A DNA stretch of 15,143 nt. It comes from an uncultured Candidatus Competibacteraceae bacterium. Its GTDB lineage: Bacteria; Pseudomonadota; Gammaproteobacteria; Competibacterales; Competibacteraceae. The stretch spans positions 1-15,143 of the forward strand of contig CALMNY010000539.1 of the NCBI GenBank assembly GCA_937872125.1. Direction: 5' to 3'. Both the position numbers and the translations under genes were made by a program. The notes beneath the pieces were generated by a model. The model was not told the DNA's origin. It saw nothing but the letters and a program-made list of their open reading frames with translations, and made no database searches. This document shows positions 3,267 through 15,143 of this stretch, in pieces (position 1 is the stretch's first letter; every line of letters starts with the position of its first letter).

Positions 3267-4715
3267 TCAACGGTTCACCTCGCCCGGTTGCAACTCCACC
3301 CGGTTTTGTTTCTGGTTATAGCCCAGCCGGGCGATGACTTCGTAATCCAGTTCTGCCTTGTCGCCGGCGGGGATGTCGGTCTCGAATTGCACGGTCTGGA
3401 AATCGTGCAGGGTCGGATTCAGCCGGCTGCGGAACACGATGTCGCCCGGATATTCGCGGCGGATTTGCACATGGATGGGTTTGCGGGTGTAGTTGCGGAT
3501 TTTCTGCCGGTAGGTCGTATGCTCGTCCCAGCCGGCCACCTGGCTGTCCAGTTCCAGCTTGAACCCGTCCTCGCCCAGCTTGCGGTAGAGATTGCCGCCC
3601 TTGATCTGGAACCACAGGTTGTCGCGGTAGACCTTCTGCTTGAGCAACTCGAACACCACCGCCGGATCGGGACCGAGATTCAGTTCGATCTTGTCGCCGA
3701 TGGGGACATATTTGAGATTCTGCGCCGCCAGATAACTCAAGCCGTCGCGGCCATTGGCGCGGAATACCCGCAGCATCCCGTCCGGCAGCGGCGTGCTGCC
3801 CAATTTGGAGGCGGTGTCGTTGCGCAACAGATAGAGCCGGGTGAGTGGCTCGCCGTACTCGCGGGGACGATAGCGGTATTCAACCGTCATCGGCACACCC
3901 GCCGCCTCGAAGCTGCGCAGGCGCTTGGCCCAGCCGTTGGGCACGGTTTCCGTCCCTTCGATGGTGTAAATGAAGTATTCGCTCAGTCCCTCCTTGATGA
4001 TTTCCTTGGGCGCTTCCATCTCTTGCATTGCGCCCGCCGCCATGTCCATGGCCATCATGGGTGCGGGCGCAGCGGGCGCCATCATCTTGCGGCCCGCTTT
4101 CTGGCGCAGTTCCCGATAGTCCTCCTCGTTGACTTCATCCTTGACCCGCCCGACCGGCACTTTCGCCAGTTCGGCGATCTTCTCCACCAGATTGATCGTG
4201 CCCACCACCAGCCGCACCTGGGCGTTTTCGTAGTCCTCGCCGGAACGATTGTTGACCCGCACGAAGCTTTCCAGTCGCAACGTCTTTTCCTCAGCATCGG
4301 CGATAGCGACATAGTCCGCCGCCCACGAAATGCCGGAGGTGAAATAGCTGATTTCGATGGTCGCCTCGCGGTTGGCGTCGCTGTGCACGTTCCAGTACAG
4401 CATCTGCGGCTTGTCGTGCGGGAACGTGGTGTCGAGTACGTCCAGACCGGCTTTCGGTTCACGGAATTTGAGTTCCACCGAGGTCGGGTCAATCAGGGTG
4501 TTGGCCCAGGAGAATTGCAGGGGATTGACGCCTTGTTTGAAAGTCACCACCCGTGTTTCCCGGACCAGGGTCAGGTCCTCGGAGTTGTAGATGGTCAGTT
4601 GCACCGTGCTCCGGGTGGGCACGGTGGCGAGATCCACGTTGCGGGCCAGCAGCGCCAGCGGCAGCAGCAACCCGAACAGGCCCAGCAGAACACGAACGGT
4701 CAGGTTAGGGGTCAT
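3267..4715 (-). CDS. Secreted DUF4139 domain protein with methionine-rich insert
   Basis: The chosen start gives 482 residues; an ATG at 4727 would add four and overlap the upstream stop by 7 nt. I prefer 4715 because GGTGAG lies just before it and the earlier ATG has no ribosome site. A hydrophobic N-terminus ending in LLPLALLA|RN looks like a signal peptide, so export to the periplasm or beyond is likely. The rest is beta-rich and matches DUF4139 proteins, with FSWANTLIDP and FVRVNNRSGEDYENAQVRLVVG as the clearest conserved blocks. Between the two halves lies a charged helix and then a Met/Ala/Pro-rich segment with MMAMDM. The C-terminal part (KIRNYTRKPIHVQIRREYP) resembles a beta-sandwich. 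Function of the family is unknown. It follows a paralogue and precedes DUF423 by one base, so the genes are probably one operon. Confidence 0.87.
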   Translation of the reverse strand: MTPNLTVRVLLGLFGLLLPLALLARNVDLATVPTRSTVQLTIYNSEDLTLVRETRVVTFKQGVNPLQFSWANTLIDPTSVELKFREPKAGLDVLDTTFPHDKPQMLYWNVHSDANREATIEISYFTSGISWAADYVAIADAEEKTLRLESFVRVNNRSGEDYENAQVRLVVGTINLVEKIAELAKVPVGRVKDEVNEEDYRELRQKAGRKMMAPAAPAPMMAMDMAAGAMQEMEAPKEIIKEGLSEYFIYTIEGTETVPNGWAKRLRSFEAAGVPMTVEYRYRPREYGEPLTRLYLLRNDTASKLGSTPLPDGMLRVFRANGRDGLSYLAAQNLKYVPIGDKIELNLGPDPAVVFELLKQKVYRDNLWFQIKGGNLYRKLGEDGFKLELDSQVAGWDEHTTYRQKIRNYTRKPIHVQIRREYPGDIVFRSRLNPTLHDFQTVQFETDIPAGDKAELDYEVIARLGYNQKQNRVELQPGEVNR

Positions 4716-4720
4716 GGCGC

Positions 4721-5905
4721 TCACCATTCGTTATTCAGAGTTAGCCGCAGGGTGTGAATCTGCTTTTTGGCCTGGCCATCGGCGGCGCGGGCCGGCAAAT
4801 CCACATGGAACAACAGCTTGTCGGCGTCGCTCTTTTCCGGGTCGGGGGTGCGCAGGCTGCCGTCGCCCAGTTGCCATTCCGGGTCGCGGCCATTGTCGCC
4901 GCGAATCTGATCGCGGATCTGGCGAACGCTTTCGGCAATATCCAGCGTAACTGGCGCATCCTTGAAGTTCTCGATCTCGTATTTCAGAGTCACGTCGTAG
5001 CGGTACAGATTGCCGGCGATGCGCTGGCGCTCGTTGCGGTCCACCGTGCGGCGCACCGCAATGTCGCGGGCCAGGCCCAGATACAGCTTGAGTTCGTCAT
5101 CGGGCGCGGTGAACTTGCCGCGATCCTCGCCCAGAAACGCCGCGCCGCCCTTGCCGTCGTCCTGGAAAATGCGGGCCTTGCCTTCCGGCAGCGGCTCTTT
5201 GCCCAATTCGCCGCCAGCGTTCTTGACCACGTAGTGCATCGGCACGTTGAGCTTGTCCTGAGCGCGGTCGAGATAGCCGAACTCCACGGGATGGGTGGTG
5301 TAAGTCTTGCGCACCGGCACGCTGGCGAAACGGTCCAGTTGCACTTCCCTGGTTTCATTCAGGCCCAGCGGCTTGCCGAACCGCTCGCCCACGCCGGCCC
5401 AGAACTCGGCGGCGTCGTAGGCTTCGTTGGCGTTATTGTTGACCCGCAGGTATTGCGCCAGATTCAGCGCCTTCTCGTCGTGGTCGGCCACCGCGCGGTA
5501 ATGAAAATCCTTGCTCAGCCCGCCCAGGACGTAGCTGATGCGCACTCGCGCCGCGCCGGAGGCGCTGGCGGCCACTGCCCAGACCAGGGCGTTCTCATTG
5601 GGCGGATAGCTGACCGACAGCACTTTGGCGTCGAGCGGTTGATCGGCGGGCGGCGGCAGGATGCGCAGCACCAGCGTGTCGGGATCAATGCGGGTGTTGG
5701 CCCAGGAAAAATCCACCTGATTGACGCCCTTGACCAGGGGAACGATGCGCTCCTCTTCGACCAGAGCGATCTGGGGATGATCGAGCTGGATTTCCACCCG
5801 CTCGCGCACCGGCAGGGTGGTGAGCTTGATGCGGGCCAGCACGTCCAGCGGCATGGTTCCAAGCAGCAGAATGCCCAGCGGATACAACCATCGAGTTCGG
5901 TTCAT
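4721..5905 (-). CDS. Secreted protein, diverged paralogue of the DUF4139 protein
   Basis: The 394-residue form from ATG 5905 is preferred. It has GGAGG 9 nt upstream and begins with a signal-peptide-like N-terminus (MNRTRW, hydrophobic core, VLA|R). An ATG 18 codons further upstream gives a poor leader. It aligns by eye with the next gene: VNQVDFSWANTRIDPDTLVL against VNPLQFSWANTLIDPTSVEL, and LRVNNNANEAYDAAEF against VRVNNRSGEDYENAQV, followed by a similar GxLGxxPLPxGxxRxF block. It lacks the Met-rich middle of its partner and is about 90 residues shorter. The C-terminus again has an IENFKDAPVTLDI-type beta strand region. The molecular function is unknown. It is first in the four-gene minus-strand block, so its upstream gap probably holds the promoter. 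Confidence 0.84.
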   Translation of the reverse strand: MNRTRWLYPLGILLLGTMPLDVLARIKLTTLPVRERVEIQLDHPQIALVEEERIVPLVKGVNQVDFSWANTRIDPDTLVLRILPPPADQPLDAKVLSVSYPPNENALVWAVAASASGAARVRISYVLGGLSKDFHYRAVADHDEKALNLAQYLRVNNNANEAYDAAEFWAGVGERFGKPLGLNETREVQLDRFASVPVRKTYTTHPVEFGYLDRAQDKLNVPMHYVVKNAGGELGKEPLPEGKARIFQDDGKGGAAFLGEDRGKFTAPDDELKLYLGLARDIAVRRTVDRNERQRIAGNLYRYDVTLKYEIENFKDAPVTLDIAESVRQIRDQIRGDNGRDPEWQLGDGSLRTPDPEKSDADKLLFHVDLPARAADGQAKKQIHTLRLTLNNEW

Positions 5906-5914
5906 CGGTCGCAG

Positions 5915-5919
5915 CCTCC
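5915..5919 (-). promoter_or_regulatory. Shine-Dalgarno site fixing the start at 5905
   Basis: GGAGG on the minus strand lies 9 nt before ATG 5905. It selects this start over the in-frame ATG at 5959. Confidence 0.6.
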
Positions 5920-5924
5920 AACAG

Positions 5925-5990
5925 GTTGAGCGTACAGGTATAAACATAAACGCTGGCAAGCGACTTTGGGGTTATGCGAAAGGTTCCTTG
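5925..5990 (-). promoter_or_regulatory. Probable promoter region of the DUF4139 operon
   Basis: This is the AT-richest stretch of the 114-bp gap before the DUF4139 pair. It contains GTTTATGTTTATACC on the minus strand and a TTGCCA upstream, but their spacing (11 nt) does not fit a standard sigma-70 promoter. It also holds the imperfect palindrome CGCTTGCCAGCG. Location is inferred from gene arrangement; I cannot name the -35 and -10 boxes. Confidence 0.25.
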
Positions 5991-8772: not shown

Positions 8773-8801
8773 GTAGGGACACGGCGCCGCCGTGTCCCTA
8801 C
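8773..8801. repeat. Perfect 13-bp inverted repeat, REP-like element and probable terminator
   Basis: GTAGGGACACGGC (8773-8785) and GCCGTGTCCCTAC (8789-8801) are exact inverted copies around the 3-base loop GCC. It lies between the convergent crotonase and response-regulator genes. The right arm contains the TAG stop of the regulator gene (8800-8798 on the minus strand). No T-run flanks it. The GTAGGG...CCCTAC form resembles dispersed intergenic palindromes known from several bacterial groups; only this copy was noticed in the window. Confidence 0.75.
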
Positions 8802-9415
8802 TCCCCATCCTTCGCCAGGGCCAGGGTTCGGATCAGGTCCGAGAGCGACTCCGCTTCAAGCTTTTCCATCACCCGCTTGCGGTGGATTTCCACCGTGGAC
8901 AGGCTGATGCCCAGTTCAGCGGCGATCACCTTGTTGTACTGACCGGACGCGGCGCGCTCCAGCACCTCCCGCTCGCGCGCCGACAGCAGGGCCAGCCGCG
9001 CCTGGGCTTCGGCGCGGCTGGCCTGGCGCCGCCGTTGCCGGGCATCGAGCGCCAGCGCCTCCCGAACCCGCTCCAGCAAGGTCTCCCCCTGAAACGGCTT
9101 CTCGATGAAATCGAACGCGCCGCCTTTCATCGCCCGGATCGCCATCGGCACATCGCCATGACCGGTCATGAACAGGATCGGCATGTGACAGCCTTGCGCC
9201 CGGAGCTGCTTTTGCAAATCCAGGCCGCTCATGCCCGGCATTCGCACGTCCAGCACCAGACAACCGGCTTGCTGGGCGGCGCTGGACCCCAGGAACGCGG
9301 CGGCGCTGGCGAAAGTTGCTACCTTTAACCCGCTGGTTCGCAGCAATAAGCTGACGGCGTCGCGCACGGCCGGGTCGTCATCAACGATGAAAACAGTAGG
9401 AGTCGCGTCATTCAT
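8798..9415 (-). CDS. FixJ/TodT-type two-component response regulator
   Basis: The 205-residue regulator has an N-terminal receiver domain and a C-terminal LuxR-type helix-turn-helix. The acidic pocket VDDD is at 11-14, the phospho-acceptor Asp56 lies in LVLDVRMPG, Thr84 is in FMTGHGD and Lys106 in IEKPF; all are intact. The DNA-binding part (about 140-195) holds LSAREREVLERAASGQYNK and a recognition helix near LSTVEIHRKRVMEKL. This is the FixJ/NarL arrangement, typically a transcription activator after phosphorylation. Its ATG overlaps the stop of the PAS kinase gene in ATGAATGA, so it is almost certainly the partner of that kinase and of the GAF kinase before it. Target genes are unknown. 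Its stop codon lies inside an inverted repeat. Confidence 0.94.
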   Translation of the reverse strand: MNDATPTVFIVDDDPAVRDAVSLLLRTSGLKVATFASAAAFLGSSAAQQAGCLVLDVRMPGMSGLDLQKQLRAQGCHMPILFMTGHGDVPMAIRAMKGGAFDFIEKPFQGETLLERVREALALDARQRRRQASRAEAQARLALLSAREREVLERAASGQYNKVIAAELGISLSTVEIHRKRVMEKLEAESLSDLIRTLALAKDGE

Positions 9416-11342
9416 GCGGGGATGGCGCTTGATAACCGTGGTAGACCGGCAGGGTGAAATGAAACGACATCCCCTGATCGGGATTGGGCGTCGCCCAGAG
9501 CTGGCCTCCCTGGGATTCGATGATCGAGCGACTGGCCGGCAGCCCCAGCCCCATGCCGCCCGGCTTGGTGCTGAAGAAGGGCTGAAACAGACGTTCAGCG
9601 GCTTCCGGACTGAGGCCGGGTCCGTTGTCGGACAGGGTGATCAGCACGGTATCCGGGTCCTCCAGCGCCGTGCGCACGATCAGCGAGCGTGGTTCCGCAG
9701 TTGTTTCATACATTGCTTCGATCGCGTTGCGCATCAGGTAGAGCACTACTAACTGGGTTTGGATATTGTTGGCCAGGACTACCGGCAGCGGTGTCGCCAG
9801 TTCGAGTTGCAAGGTCACCCCGCCCCAGTGCAATTCCAGTTCTGCGTAGTGAACGACGGCGTGGATCAGGGCATTGAGATCAAGTGCAGTCCGAGCGGTG
9901 GGATGCTTGTGCACCAGGTCGCGCAGGTGCCGGATGATGTCGCCGGCCCGCAGGCCCTGCTTGGCGACTTCTTCGAGCACGCCGGTCAGTTCCCGGGGGT
10001 CAATCCGGTCCTGCCGCAGCAGCCCCAGACAGGCCTGGGCATAGGCGACAATCGCCGCCAGCGGCTGATTGATGTCATGCGCCAGGTTGGACGCCATCTC
10101 GACCGCCAGGCTGAGCCGTGAGGTCTTGGCCAATTCCACTTGTTGCCGGCGCAATTGGTCCTCGGCCAGTTTACGGGCGGTGATGTCCTCCGCCAGCCCG
10201 GCGATGCGGTAGGCGTAACCCGCCGCGTCGCGGATCGGAAAGCCACGATCCCGGATCCAGCGCACCGCGCCATCGGGCTGGACGATTCGATACTCCTCGT
10301 CGAGCCGGCCGGATTCGAGCTTTGCTACGTGCGCCGCGTGGATGCGCGCCCGGTCGTCGGGATGCACGGCCTCAATCCATTCCAGCGGCCGCTCCAGCAG
10401 GTTTTGCGCAGAGCGTCCCCAGATCTCCTCGTAGGCCGGACTGACGTAGAGCAGCCGTTCCTCGGTAATCCCGTAGACCCAGAACACCTCCCGGATATGC
10501 TCGGTCAGTTGGCGAAACCGTTCCTCGCTGTCACGCAGCGCGCATTCCACCTGGATGCGGGCGGCGATCTGATCCTGGAGCGCCTGGTTGGCGGCGGTTA
10601 ATTCCGCCGTGCGCGCCTGAACCCGTTCCTCCAGTTCGTCGTTGGCGCGTTGCCATTGCGCCTCGGTCCGTTTCAGGACGGTGCTGTCACGGGAGATGCC
10701 GATGATGCCGATGATGTGACCGGCGGCGTCGCGCCAGGGCCATTTGGTGGTCCGGAAGAGGAACTCGCCGTGCGCGAGAGCAACGGTTTGCTCGCGACTG
10801 TGCATGGTCCCGCTGGCCATGACCTGGCGGTCGTCATCCACCAACTGGCGGGCGACGGCAGCGGGGAACAACTCGGTATCGTCCCGGCCCAGGCACTCGG
10901 CCAGGGGATGACCGATCACGTTGGCCCCGGTCGAATTGAGCACGCGATAACGTCCCTGCCGGTCTTTGATGAACGCTGCATCGGTGATTTGCTCGATGAA
11001 TTCGACCAGCCGGATATCCTGGAACCGCGCCGCGCGCTGGAGGGTTCGAGCATCGAAATACAACAGCCAGTAGAAGAACACGCCGCTGGCGGCAATGAAC
11101 AGCGCATGCGTCAGCAGGTGGGCAAAAGGCGGGGCCAGAACGCTGCCGATCCAGGCGGTCACCAGGGGACCGCCCCACAGGAGCCAGATCAGACTGGCGG
11201 CGATATACAGCGCGACCCAAAGGGCCGGCCGGAGACCCCACGGTCCGCTTTGAGCCTCGGTGTACTTCCCGTCAGGGGTGGGCGGAAAGGGCGGTGGGTC
11301 GTGAGCAGCGTCCGCCAGGGGAGCGAATCCGGAATCGGCCAT
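9408..11342 (-). CDS. Membrane PAS-domain sensor histidine kinase
   Basis: The 644-residue kinase starts with a Pro-rich tail and two membrane helices (about 39-64 and 72-96). A first PAS domain spans about 108-222 (FIKDRQGRYRVLNSTGANVIG), followed by a coiled coil (about 226-270) and a second PAS/PAC domain (about 272-393, YVSPAYEEIWG ... EYRIVQPDG). The phospho-acceptor is His422 in NLAHDINQPLAAI. The ATPase domain has Asn539 in LMRNAIEAM, DNGPGL (572-577), FQPFFSTK and GMGLGLP (596-602). This is the FixL/TodS-like HPK4 style. It has no fused receiver. Its ATG lies 16 nt after the upstream kinase stop and has GGTGAGG 5 nt before it. The stop overlaps the response-regulator start. PAS ligands are unknown; no haem-binding histidine could be assigned. 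Confidence 0.94.
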   Translation of the reverse strand: MADSGFAPLADAAHDPPPFPPTPDGKYTEAQSGPWGLRPALWVALYIAASLIWLLWGGPLVTAWIGSVLAPPFAHLLTHALFIAASGVFFYWLLYFDARTLQRAARFQDIRLVEFIEQITDAAFIKDRQGRYRVLNSTGANVIGHPLAECLGRDDTELFPAAVARQLVDDDRQVMASGTMHSREQTVALAHGEFLFRTTKWPWRDAAGHIIGIIGISRDSTVLKRTEAQWQRANDELEERVQARTAELTAANQALQDQIAARIQVECALRDSEERFRQLTEHIREVFWVYGITEERLLYVSPAYEEIWGRSAQNLLERPLEWIEAVHPDDRARIHAAHVAKLESGRLDEEYRIVQPDGAVRWIRDRGFPIRDAAGYAYRIAGLAEDITARKLAEDQLRRQQVELAKTSRLSLAVEMASNLAHDINQPLAAIVAYAQACLGLLRQDRIDPRELTGVLEEVAKQGLRAGDIIRHLRDLVHKHPTARTALDLNALIHAVVHYAELELHWGGVTLQLELATPLPVVLANNIQTQLVVLYLMRNAIEAMYETTAEPRSLIVRTALEDPDTVLITLSDNGPGLSPEAAERLFQPFFSTKPGGMGLGLPASRSIIESQGGQLWATPNPDQGMSFHFTLPVYHGYQAPSPHE

Positions 11343-11358
11343 GCGCGCCTCACCGAAT

Positions 11359-13320
11359 CTAGGCTGTATCCAGGGACAGCGCTACGGCCACACCTTCGGG
11401 AGGGGCAGCGGCGCTGGCGATGGGTAGGGTGAAGTGGAAAGTGACCCCGTGCCTGGCGTTGGGCGTCGCCCACAACCGACCGCCATGCGCTTCGATGATG
11501 GACTGACTGATGGGCAACCCCAGCCCGAGACCGTCGGGCTTGGTGGTGAAAAAGGGATGCAGCAGTTGATCGTGTACGTCTGGCGCCAGGCCTGGCCCGG
11601 AATCCTGTATCGCGATTTCGACTCCCGCCGGTTCGGCGCGGGCTGAGATCGCCAGCGTGCGGGCCTCCGGGCCGGGGCTGGCGTTGATGGCGTCCATGGC
11701 GTTGCCGACCAGGTTGAGCAGCACCTGCTGCACTTGCAGGGCGTCGGCCCGCACCAGTGGCAATTCCGGGGCGATGTCGTAGCGCAACTCGATCTGATGA
11801 CGACGGGCCTCCAGATTCAGGAAATCCATAATGTCCGTGAAAACGTCGTTGAGCCGAACCGTGATGTAATGCGGTTTCCCCTGGCGGGCAAATTGGCGGA
11901 TGCGCTGGATGATGGCCTTGGCCCGGGTGCTCTGGGCAATGATTTTTTCCAGGGTTTCGCGCGCCTCGGCCGGTCCCAGCGCGTCGTTGCGCACCCGGGT
12001 CAGGCCGGCTTCGGCGTACAGATTGATCGCCGTGATCGGCTGGTTGACCTCATGGGCCAGGGCCGACGCCATTTCGCCCAGAGTGTTAAGGCGCGAGGCG
12101 TGCGCCAGCAGGGTTTGCTGGCGCTGCGCCGTCTCGGCCATGCGTTCCTGCTCCAGTGCGCCACCCACCCACTGAGCCATGAGCTGGATCAATTCGCGGT
12201 CTACGGGAGTAAACGGTACGCTCCGTGGAGTGAAAGCAGAGAAACTCAGGGTCCCGTACACCTGCTCGCCGACCCGGACCGGAACGCCCAGATAGGTCTC
12301 CAACCCGAATTTCTGGTAGCAGGGATGCTGGCGCCAGGGACCCGCCGACGCATGTTCGAAACTCAGCAACGTCCCGGCGCGCAGCGTGTCGCGGCAGTAG
12401 GTATCGGCCAGGTTGAGAACATCGCCCTGGTTGATGACGCCGTCAGGGGCAACGGTGTAGGCGACTTCATGACGCTCGCCTTCGACATGGCACAGAATGC
12501 CGATGGCCATGTCGAAGCGCTGGCAGCCCATCGCCAGCAGGGCCTGGATTCGATCACTGGCGTGGCGGCGCGGGGTCGAGATCACCTGGTACAGTTCCCG
12601 CATCGCCGCCACGCTGTCGCGCAAAGCCGCTTGCTGGTCGGCCAGTTGCCGGTTGGTTTCCTCGGTCTCCGCTCTGGCGGTGGCGAACGACTGCGCCAGG
12701 CTCAGATTTTCCGCCGCCAGGCGTAGCGAGCGGGCCAGCGTTCGGTGAAAGTACCAGGCGGTGCCCAGCACCAACAGCAGATAGAAAATACCGGCGGCGC
12801 CCATGGCGACGCGCACCGGATCGTCCCGCAGCAGCAGCCAGAGTACCGGCGGCAGACCGACCGGCAGAGCATAGGCCACACAGGCGGTTAACACCGGACT
12901 CAGGGTCAGCGCGCTACCCATCAGGACGCCGCCCAGGATCAGGGCGATGAAGGCGTCATAGACCGGCGACGGGGACAGGGCCAGCAGGACGACGCAACCG
13001 CCCCAGCAGGCGCCGTTGGTAGCGCCGGCCCAGGTGTAACGACTGACCCAGCCTTCGATGTCGGCATCCGGATCGGCGTGGCGCTGGAAGGCGGCGGTCA
13101 GAGCCAGCCGGATCAGGGTGGCCGCCGCCAGCAACAGAACCCAGACCGCTAAAACTGTTCGCGGCAGCGTATCCCACAGGACCAGCACCAGGATCGGAGC
13201 AACGAACAGATTAGCGGCCACCCCCAGCGGGGCCTGTTCGTATAGCTGCCGTACTTGTTGGGCGCGGATTTGCCGCGCCGCAACGTCACTCACAGGACTG
13301 GGCATGGCGACGGCGTTCAC
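11359..13320 (-). CDS. Six-helix GAF-domain sensor histidine kinase
   Basis: The 653-residue kinase begins with about six membrane helices (35-192). A coiled-coil linker (about 200-240) and a GAF domain (about 240-392, with NLADTYCRDTLRAG and LGVPVRVGEQVYGTLSF) follow. The phospho-acceptor is His423 in ALAHEVNQPITAI. Asn540 in LLNLVGNAMDA, DSGPGL (573-578), HPFFTTK and GLGLGLP (597-603) form the ATP site. The last 90 residues closely resemble the PAS kinase (SIIEAHGGRLWATPN against SIIESQGGQLWATPN), so the two probably share a regulator. The start is GTG at 13320, overlapping the TGA of the 100-residue gene as GTGA; an ATG at 13305 is an alternative. Four GAF-region cysteines (266, 277, 309, 334) and Cys105/Cys109 in a helix are noted. 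The sensed signal is unknown. Confidence 0.92.
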   Translation of the reverse strand: MNAVAMPSPVSDVAARQIRAQQVRQLYEQAPLGVAANLFVAPILVLVLWDTLPRTVLAVWVLLLAAATLIRLALTAAFQRHADPDADIEGWVSRYTWAGATNGACWGGCVVLLALSPSPVYDAFIALILGGVLMGSALTLSPVLTACVAYALPVGLPPVLWLLLRDDPVRVAMGAAGIFYLLLVLGTAWYFHRTLARSLRLAAENLSLAQSFATARAETEETNRQLADQQAALRDSVAAMRELYQVISTPRRHASDRIQALLAMGCQRFDMAIGILCHVEGERHEVAYTVAPDGVINQGDVLNLADTYCRDTLRAGTLLSFEHASAGPWRQHPCYQKFGLETYLGVPVRVGEQVYGTLSFSAFTPRSVPFTPVDRELIQLMAQWVGGALEQERMAETAQRQQTLLAHASRLNTLGEMASALAHEVNQPITAINLYAEAGLTRVRNDALGPAEARETLEKIIAQSTRAKAIIQRIRQFARQGKPHYITVRLNDVFTDIMDFLNLEARRHQIELRYDIAPELPLVRADALQVQQVLLNLVGNAMDAINASPGPEARTLAISARAEPAGVEIAIQDSGPGLAPDVHDQLLHPFFTTKPDGLGLGLPISQSIIEAHGGRLWATPNARHGVTFHFTLPIASAAAPPEGVAVALSLDTA

Positions 13321-13619
13321 AGAGTGCGGCGCGACCGCTGGCGCGATGGGGCGACCGGCGCCGGTTGGTGTTCCAGTGCGGGTTGGTCAGAAACTACCGT
13401 GTATTCGCCTTCGATAAAGCCGGGGTGGGCTTTGCGCGCCTGCCGCGCCAGCCGGCGGAATTGCCACCACAGCCAGCCGCCGAACGCCAGCCCGACGACC
13501 AGCAGGACGGTGAACAACACGGAGGCGACGGCGAACCCGGCGATGATCGCCAGGACGGAGGTCAGAGCCAGGCCAATCCGGCCCAGCAGCGAGGTTTTGG
13601 GGAGCGGCAGGGATTTCAT
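13317..13619 (-). CDS. Small membrane protein with IEGEY tail, unknown function
   Basis: The 100-residue protein starts at ATG 13619, overlapping the stop of the 26-residue gene as ATGA. The open frame runs further upstream, but that extension overlaps the ATPase gene and is Arg/Pro-rich nonsense. One long or two short membrane helices occupy about 13-53, followed by a basic stretch (FRRLARQARKAH), then GFIEGEYTVV (67-76) and a Pro/Arg tail. Small proteobacterial membrane proteins with a similar IEGEY-type tail exist, from memory, but have no known role. It has no clear ribosome site, so it probably depends on coupling. Its stop overlaps the GTG of the GAF kinase. Whether it acts with the ATPase or the kinase is open. 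Confidence 0.75.
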   Translation of the reverse strand: MKSLPLPKTSLLGRIGLALTSVLAIIAGFAVASVLFTVLLVVGLAFGGWLWWQFRRLARQARKAHPGFIEGEYTVVSDQPALEHQPAPVAPSRQRSRRTL

Positions 13620-13696
13620 GAGCGGGCGATCCAGAACCACCAGACGATCAGGCCGATCAGGCCCAGTCCGGCGAGGTTGACGAGCAGTAGGGTCAT
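13616..13696 (-). CDS. 26-residue single-helix membrane peptide
   Basis: This small gene reads [15 protein letters not shown] at its start and ends VWWFWIARS, a single hydrophobic helix with an aromatic WWFW border and one basic residue. It is supported by AGGAG 8 nt before its ATG, by an ATGA overlap with the ATPase stop at 13695-13693, and by a second ATGA overlap with the 100-residue gene start at 13619. From memory, the sequence resembles the N-terminal anchor of cupredoxin-like proteins that sit beside copper ATPases. It could therefore be a remnant of such a protein, or a functional helper peptide like those of other P-type pumps. No metal ligand is present. Confidence 0.65.
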
Positions 13697-15143
13697 GATG
13701 ACTTCTCCTGGGGTCGAAACCCCCGCAGCCGGTTGGCGTTGCTGACGACGGTAAAGGACGACAGCGCCATGGCCGCGCCGGCCAGCATCGGGTTGAGCAA
13801 CAGTCCGGTCGCCGGGTAGAGCACACCCGCGGCGAGCGGAATTCCCAGACTATTGTAAAGGAAAGCGCCGATCAGATTCTGCCGAATGTTGCCCAGCGTG
13901 GCGCGAGAAATGGCGATGGCGTCGGCGACGCCGTGCAGGGAGCCGCGCGCCAGGGTGATGCCGGCGCTTTCGATGGCGATGTCGGTTCCGCCGCCCATGG
14001 CCAGGCCAACATCGGCCCGGGCCAGCGCCGGCGCATCGTTGATGCCGTCGCCGACCATGCCCACCACCGCGCCCTCGGCTTGCAGTCCGGCGATCACCTC
14101 GGCCTTGGCGGTGGGCAGCACCTCGGCGAATACCGTCTCGATGCCGACTTGCGCGGCAATCGCCTGGGCAGTGGCGGCATGGTCGCCGGTCAACAATACC
14201 ACCCGCAGCCCCAGTTCCCGCAGGCGGGCGAGGGCGGCGGCGGAATCCGGCTTGAGCGGATCGGCGATAGCCAGGATGCCGGCAAGCCGACTGTCCACCG
14301 CCACGAACACCGGCGTCTGGCCCTGGGCGGCCAGGCGCTCCGCGTCGGCGTGCAACGGTGCGGCGTCAATCCCGTGTTCCTCCAGCAGGCGGCGGTTGCC
14401 GGCCAGCAACGCCCGGCCCTCGATCACGCCGCTCGCGCCGTGACCGGCGATGGCCGCGAACCGTTCCACGGCGGGAATCGCCAGCCCCCGGGCGCGCGCC
14501 GCGTCCAGGATCGCCTGGGCCAGCGGATGTTCGGAACCGGCTTCCAGCCCCGCCGCCAGCCGGAACACCTCGGTCTCGGCGAAACCGGGCGCGGTGATCA
14601 CGGCGGTCACGGTGGGCCGGCCGGTGGTGACGGTGCCGGTTTTGTCCAGCACGACGGTCGTGAGTTGCCCGGCCCGTTGCAACGCCGCCCCGTCGCGGAT
14701 CAGGACGCCATATTCGGCGGCCTTGCCGACCCCGACCATGATCGAGATCGGCGTGGCCAGCCCCAACGCACAGGGGCAGGCGATGATCAGCACGGTCAGC
14801 GTCGTGACCAGCATGAAGCCGGCGCGCGGTTCCGGGCCGAAGTTGAACCAGGCCAGGGCGGTGAGCACGGCCACGATCAGGACCGTAGGCACGAAGATGG
14901 CGGCGACCCGGTCGGCCAGCCGGCCAATCGGCGGCTTGCTGTTCTGGGCCTGGCGCACGCTGGCGATGATGTGGGCCAGCACCGTGTCGGCCCCGACCCG
15001 GGTGGCCCGGAACACGAAACTGCCGGTTTGATTGACCGTGCCGCCAGTGACCGGATCGCTGGCCTGTTTGACGACCGGCAGCGGTTCACCGGTGAGCATG
15101 GCTTCATCCACGGTGGACTGACCGGCGATGATTTCGCCGTCCA
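13693..15143 (-). CDS. copA: Cu(I)-exporting P1B-type ATPase, 5' part outside window
   Basis: The frame is open to the right edge; the N-terminus (metal-binding domains and first helices) is missing. The visible 483 residues begin in the actuator domain ([22 protein letters not shown]) and include the membrane metal site CPC in [11 protein letters not shown], the phosphorylation motif DKTGT, the P1B-specific SEHPLAQAI, the hinge [11 protein letters not shown], and C-terminal helices with LYNSLGIP and MALSS. The YN and MxxSS signature in the last two helices marks the Cu(I)/Ag(I) subgroup (CopA), which pumps Cu+ out of the cytoplasm using ATP. The end, [12 protein letters not shown], is typical of CopA and less like CcoI, the oxidase-assembly pump. 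It leads a chain of overlapping genes ending in two kinases and a regulator. Any promoter lies beyond the window. Confidence 0.95.
13705..13709 (-). promoter_or_regulatory. Shine-Dalgarno site of the 26-residue gene
   Basis: AGGAG lies within the last codons of the ATPase gene, 8 nt before ATG 13696. It is among the clearest ribosome sites in the operon and the main evidence that the tiny gene is translated. Confidence 0.6.

Follow-up and report, generated by a model that had tools for sequence, protein, structure and literature searches.

Directly behind the gene for the copper ATPase CopA, a Competibacteraceae genome carries a frame for a 26-aa single-helix protein that, judged by its sequence, is the membrane anchor of a CupA-like cupredoxin minus the copper domain. 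We regard this helix as a candidate CopA subunit with predicted binding to the pump. It is possible, with a likelihood approaching even, that many Gammaproteobacteria have such an unnamed CopA subunit of 23-35 aa, its frame often overlapping copA in translation, in which a CupA-like anchor repeatedly lost or gained its cupredoxin domain while the helix would have been kept as a pump-binding tuner, by analogy with KdpF or sarcolipin, and that in Competibacteraceae it then came under a two-kinase FixJ-type system replacing CueR/CsoR. The helix microprotein is the less expected part of this finding and the one most worth following. As judged from gene order and overlaps, copA, two sensor kinase genes and one regulator gene are one tightly packed operon.

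The window, i.e. the whole stretch of 15,143 nucleotides that was analysed, is one whole contig of a draft genome of 3.49 Mb (553 contigs, 80.69% complete). The relatives of this genome are Candidatus Competibacteraceae, a group of the class Gammaproteobacteria from wastewater. All six genes of the chain lie on the minus strand:

13693..15141, minus strand: copA, copper P1B-1 ATPase, C-terminal 482 aa (TIGR01511 and TIGR01525)
13616..13696, minus strand: 26-aa single-helix protein, CupA-like cupredoxin anchor without cupredoxin domain (matches, pN/pS)
13317..13619, minus strand: 100-aa membrane protein (no family over a cut-off; alignment from 30 loci)
11359..13320, minus strand: membrane GAF histidine kinase, 653 aa (GAF, HisKA, HATPase_c)
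9408..11342, minus strand: PAS-PAS histidine kinase, 644 aa (PAS_4, PAS_3, HisKA, HATPase_c)
8798..9415, minus strand: FixJ-type response regulator, 205 aa (Response_reg and GerE)

The first two junctions, copA/26 aa and 26 aa/100 aa, are ATGA overlaps, the 100-aa gene and the GAF kinase gene share GTGA, a gap of 16 nt separates the two kinase genes, and the PAS kinase gene overlaps the regulator gene by 8 nt (ATGAATGA). The original prediction had described this coupled six-gene chain and its junctions; upon re-reading of the coordinates in the window it proved correct to the base, and its domain assignments agree with the Pfam and NCBIfam matches. The contig end cuts off the 5' part of copA, so the window lacks the start and promoter of this gene and shows the chain solely from the gene's 3' part onward. 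For the 100-aa protein, profile searches against Pfam and NCBIfam gave no match over a cut-off. Elsewhere in the window, positions 42-2078 encode the membrane pyrophosphatase HppA, of which a second copy, 45-50% identical, is present in many family genomes, and positions 3267-5959 hold two tandem neighbouring frames, one with DUF4139.

The partial CopA of the window scored 482.8 bits with TIGR01511 (cut-off 397) and 523.1 bits with TIGR01525 (cut-off 346.25). Its open reading frame contains the CPC motif and has the features that define P1B-1 copper ATPases. Seventeen complete CopA relatives (747-776 aa) start with a single MSCAGC metal-binding motif. A cysteine-rich N-terminus of the CCxGC type marks oxidase-assembly ATPases (CcoI/FixI). 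An ATPase of this CcoI type is encoded by a separate gene in G001, G006, G018, G021, G022, G026, G029, G037 and G222 (9 of the 11 further ATPases examined), indicating that the CopA of the operon is not the oxidase-assembly pump. A CcoI/FixI-type pump was ruled out by these nine separate CCxGC genes together with the MSCAGC start of the complete relatives, the window protein itself being without its N-terminus. Further ATPases with TCPM motifs, which we take to be SilP-like, were seen in L252, L256, L257, L260 and L263, most of them adjoining weak matches to the CueR model; several metal pumps therefore coexist in some relatives.

The 26-aa frame was matched in 29 of the 39 family genomes, with a weakest best E value of 8.5e-7. 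Pooled pN/pS was 0.34 for this frame (406 pairs, 29 family sequences), compared with 0.88 and 1.60 for the two alternative frames, and the frame is under purifying selection in the family. A version of 25 aa follows copA at a distance of 2 nt in the sister-family genome G222. Elsewhere in the class, PF13473 cupredoxin proteins encoded directly 3' of copA begin with the same helix. With CupA-like proteins the 26-aa protein shares the N-terminal membrane helix and the copA-coupled gene; it has no cupredoxin domain with copper ligands, being 26 aa in total and having its stop codon overlapped by the next gene. Among 13 cupredoxin proteins the helix part was better conserved than the remainder (mean identity 0.55 vs 0.48, higher in 60 of 78 pairs), although these proteins had been picked from 30 loci for an anchor resembling the 26-aa query, a choice that favours this result. 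A CcoS-like identity, considered as an alternative, was dropped, as the protein matches the cupredoxin anchor instead. The original prediction had not recognised the 26-aa protein as such an anchor.

Across the class, the helix segment was found in 65 of 369 genomes, three of them in the family. All 64 matches outside the family were read, and 58 lie directly behind copA, starting from 4 nt inside to 47 nt past its stop codon. Frames of more than 80 aa account for 24 of the 58, with a cupredoxin motif in 22 of them, and 33 are anchor-only frames of 23-35 aa. The window protein itself belongs to this helix-only group by its length, its WWF motif and its position directly behind copA. L388 has a 68-aa partial cupredoxin behind copA; it may be a frameshifted cupredoxin, and the trees treat it as cupredoxin. 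In L381 and L390 a CopA gene lies about 0.5 to 1 kb upstream of the helix frame, L394 has a helix frame and no CopA gene within the stretch, L368 has a cupredoxin without copA in the stretch, and L397 and L400 look like chance matches inside longer frames. By eye, RNase D-like frames adjoin the helix microproteins in L390 and L394.

A 4-nt overlap with copA is present in 18 of the 33 short frames. Their tails contain Lys or Arg in 29 of 33 cases and Asp or Glu in seven, and residues 2 to 5 hold Lys or Arg in none of the 33, a distribution that points to an inside C-terminus of the helix. The pN/pS outside the family was 0.35 (10 close pairs), with 0.88 to 1.60 in other frames, so selection on the peptide is seen there too. 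That the short frames are frameshifted cupredoxins was rejected, since a cupredoxin motif occurred within 600 nt downstream, in the three forward frames, in 0 of 33 (the L372 sequence ends soon after the frame).

In a CopA tree of 72 rows (76 labelled, four too short), 62 helix-bearing CopA proteins fall on one side of a branch with support 100/98. Helix-only versus cupredoxin states required 13 to 14 changes on this tree, of which 4 to 5 are forced by well-supported branches, with the bootstrap unsettled. Rows were chosen for having the helix, so that helix losses within this clade are invisible, and the 10 helix-less CopA proteins are all from the family. That the helix was repeatedly separated from its copper domain yet retained behind copA suggests a function of its own at CopA. 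Plasmid copies near the window copA, from Shewanella, Alteromonas and Salinimonas, have an annotated cupredoxin domain-containing gene behind and a MerR-type gene before them; two of these plasmid cupredoxin genes were translated and both start with the helix. A plasmid search with the 26-aa query gave no match, but it ran under a low-complexity filter and does not speak for absence. An Enterobacter copy with CueR has no cupredoxin gene annotated behind copA.

KdpF, sarcolipin and phospholamban are small single-helix proteins that bind a P-type ATPase. The copA-coupled helix may be likened to them, by analogy, in size and build, and we know of no P1B copper ATPase with such a single-helix subunit. 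No description of a small helix protein at copA was found in the open-licence literature, and the CopA-coupled single-helix proteins are apparently an undescribed family. According to the available parts of the sources, Streptococcus pneumoniae CupA and the Rhizobiales CupA-like PF13473 proteins have a single N-terminal membrane helix and CopA as partner (PMC7558416, PMC5552934). CupA and the long form encoded behind copA in Gammaproteobacteria are built alike. Unlike CupA, the window protein and 33 others consist of the helix only and have no copper-binding cupredoxin domain.

We then turn to the operon as a whole. All six genes are present in the same order in 21 of the 39 family genomes (21 of the 33 genomes with loci read), and the order is hence not unique to the window genome; the refuting condition named in the original prediction, a gene order confined to this genome, does not hold. 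The operon or part of it, defined by a match to any kinase, to the 26-aa frame or a close match to the regulator, occurs in 32 of the 39, with the GAF kinase matched in 27 (E 1e-60) and the PAS kinase in 26 (E 1e-120). Junctions are conserved as well. The helix and 100-aa genes overlap by 4 nt in 28 of 29 family loci, copA and the helix gene by 4 nt in 21 of 27, and the 100-aa and GAF kinase genes by 4 nt in 15 of 25; the spacing between the kinase genes is -4 to +30 nt in 22 of 24, and the PAS kinase and regulator genes overlap by 4 or 8 nt in 18 of 27. This conservation of order and junctions indicates that the layout is more than chance.

Among the 33 genomes read, five are without one or both kinases: G003 has no PAS kinase, G025 and G027 have no GAF kinase, and G026 and G028 have neither, the regulator of G028 being split by an insertion. 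In this last genome (L158, 619-2681) the interrupting gene encodes about 395 aa, and a second copA-helix-100 aa piece is present on L162. Six further genomes (G007, G014, G016, G017, G035, G038) have loci cut by contig ends. The interpretation in the original prediction is supported in part: the association of a two-kinase system with copA is kept across a clade, but the two-kinase state is not fixed. No part of the operon was detected in G012, G021, G022, G023, G031 and G032. G001 has only copA, the helix gene and the 100-aa gene, without kinases or regulator.

The hppA gene was unusable as a species-tree marker, with no match at E 1e-100 in 6 of the 30 genomes searched (G001, G010, G021, G022, G023, G222), and rpoB was used instead. 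In the rpoB tree (27 rows from the 30 genomes searched), a single branch with support 100/100 separates 20 carriers from 7 non-carriers, the latter including the sister-family genome G222. It follows from this single split that the kinases and the regulator joined the pump once, and the rpoB tree places their addition to copA-helix-100 aa on the stem of the Competibacter/Contendobacter clade. The copA-helix-100 aa set that stands alone in G001, outside the carriers, is plausibly the earlier state. A unique or accidental layout is ruled out by the conserved order, the conserved junctions and the single rpoB branch.

The region upstream of copA was compared among relatives. A shared operator was not found in a low-power test with 21 sequences from 14 lineage groups; the best four-plus-four word was present in 6 of the 14 groups and was equalled by 1 of 30 shuffles. 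Exact 7-nt dyads occurred in 3 of 22 regions (G001, G005, G029) and differed from each other. Another gene stops 12-21 nt short of copA in G033, G034 and G036, and a hemL-like gene stops 53 nt short of it in G025 and G027, so that the copA promoter context differs between genera. Upstream of copA and divergent from it, L036 (3130-5161) and L049 (3144-5179) of relatives contain a partner-switch set composed of a response regulator-SpoIIE phosphatase, a HATPase_c_2 anti-sigma-type kinase and a STAS protein, in the place taken by the hemL-like gene in G025 and G027.

CueR (TIGR02044) scored over the cut-off in 5 of the 39 family genomes (G011, G021, G022, G031, G032), that is in 1 of 32 operon carriers (G011) versus 4 of 7 family genomes without the operon; none was found over the cut-off in the window genome, which is 80.69% complete. 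In G011, G021, G031 and G032 CueR adjoins a different copA, 51 to 55% identical to the operon copA. Matches to the CueR model at E 0.001 occur in 29 of the 39 genomes, some of the weaker ones that were read standing alone and some beside ATPases. Upstream of copA, G222 carries a gene of the CsoR type (PF02583, 97.4 bits), and G001, G012 and G023 have neither the regulatory operon nor CueR over the cut-off. An exchange of copper regulators, from CueR to the two-component branch, is plausible; it rests on one tree event, with many of the genomes incomplete. Kinase gain and CueR absence coincide on that single branch only, and the family survey covered CueR.

The regulator reached 239.5 bits with the FixJ model, below the cut-off of 255, and both kinases scored best on the FixL model (220.9 and 192.1 bits), far under its cut-off of 850. 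Against TIGR01387 (CzcR/SilR/CopR) the regulator scored 61 bits (cut-off 279.2), with the receiver part only, and its output domain is GerE; it is FixJ-type and not of the CusR/CopR (OmpR) type, as had been proposed. Its nearest solved structure is 1yio, followed by FixJ 5xso. The kinase motifs are conserved. In the GAF kinase H423 is invariant in 20 of 20 aligned sequences, as are Cys266 and Cys309 of the GAF domain. The GAF part is absent in G034, G036, G037 and G038, whose proteins have 503-531 aa. The membrane regions of the kinases have conserved Trp, and the alignment contained no conserved Cys/His cluster in these regions. By eye, no histidine of the heme type, as in FixL, was recognised in the PAS domains; a heme FixL identity is unsupported. 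A structure model of the GAF kinase (mean pLDDT 75.6, pTM 0.39) gave, among the 50 matches listed, mostly kinase cores and phytochromes and offered no clue to the membrane domain. Around other regulators of FixJ-like type, 20 stretches were read, 17 of them from genomes outside the order, and none had a CopA of the operon's type within about 8 kb; CopA-like ATPases were confined to L196 and L200 and began with a CCxGC N-terminus in both.

The original prediction knew of no described system with this layout. A close precedent is the Myxococcus xanthus curA operon, which, in the part of the source available, comprises nine genes including corS, corR and copA and is regulated by CorSR (PMC3707914). 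It likewise places a two-component system inside a copA operon, and it differs from the window in having, as far as that part of the source goes, one kinase, a sigma-54 (NtrC-type) regulator and a multicopper oxidase (PMC3707914). The window operon, unlike that of Myxococcus, has two kinases and a FixJ-type regulator. Thus, a two-component system in a copA operon is already known, and the two-kinase FixJ-type form is a variant of it.

Our preferred reading, held tentatively and at somewhat less than even likelihood, is that the genes form a copper-export operon equipped with a regulatory branch of two inputs, with the helix docked on CopA and the branch replacing CueR/CsoR. It is favoured by the 21-genome order with its overlaps, the single rpoB origin, the G001 state, the CueR distribution, the CsoR-type gene of G222, the separate CcoI-type ATPases and the 58 of 64 helix matches behind copA. 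Against it stand an upstream region with no word clearly above shuffles, unshared dyads and variable promoter context, the absence of kinases where copA stays, the interrupted regulator of G028, the three genomes with neither the regulatory operon nor CueR over the cut-off, the weaker CueR-model matches, and the coincidence of kinase gain and CueR absence on one branch only. A somewhat less probable alternative is that the two-component genes use the pump operon for steady expression and regulate unrelated genes, copA not being their target. In its favour, no motif is common upstream of copA, its promoter context varies between genera, five genomes keep the pump side without one or both kinases, and no metal site was seen in the sensors. 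However, position and overlaps are conserved in 21 genomes, and CueR scored over its cut-off in just 1 of 32 carriers.

Two further alternatives concern the signal. Strict Cu(I) sensing, in which copper binds to one kinase or to both and the regulator turns the operon on like CusS/CusR or Myxococcus CorS/CorR, draws on operon membership, the CorSR precedent and the invariant Cys266 and Cys309 of the GAF domain (20 of 20). We consider it improbable; against it, the GAF part is absent in G034, G036, G037 and G038 and the membrane helices have no cluster of conserved Cys or His. A FixL/FixJ-like sensing of oxygen or redox state, coupling copper export to respiration mode, appears more improbable still. 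The regulator and kinase cores score best on the FixJ and FixL models, and in two other genomes (L196 and L200) an ATPase with a CCxGC N-terminus has a kinase-FixJ-like pair at a distance of about 4 kb, but the FixL scores of 220.9 and 192.1 bits stand against a cut-off of 850, and the PAS domains showed, by eye, no heme-type histidine as in FixL. The window system is like FixL/FixJ in kinase core and regulator type and unlike it in scoring below both cut-offs, in the absence of a heme PAS by eye, in its two kinases and in its link to an export CopA.

In the preferred reading of a copper-export operon with its own regulatory branch, CopA would export Cu(I) from the cytoplasm, as expected from its family. 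The 26-aa helix would stay in the membrane with its C-terminus inside and dock on CopA as an accessory subunit; its sequence and position show that it descends from, or shares descent with, the CupA-like chaperone anchor. The GAF and PAS kinases, with their related cores, intact motifs and coupling, would both phosphorylate the single FixJ-type regulator. The regulator in turn would modulate expression of the pump operon, probably along with further genes for copper handling or respiration, and would take the place of the CueR or CsoR sensors found next to a copA in some other members of the order.

CopRS is a copper two-component system. Another is, in the available part of the source, CusRS (PMC7558416). 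The CueR-copA arrangement resembles the window operon in that a local copper regulator adjoins copA, and differs, as far as this partial source describes it, in having a one-component sensor of the MerR type (PMC7558416). The regulatory part of the window operon suggests that a local one-component copper sensor is exchangeable for a two-kinase phosphorelay. Competibacteraceae are known from phosphorus-removal plants, in which each cycle brings a swing in redox state. The usual picture of a copper ATPase is a pump made of a single chain. If true, the conserved coupled helix would place copper ATPases among those P-type ATPases that have a small subunit for regulation or stabilisation, and a helix subunit would explain the unannotated short frame behind copA in many genomes.
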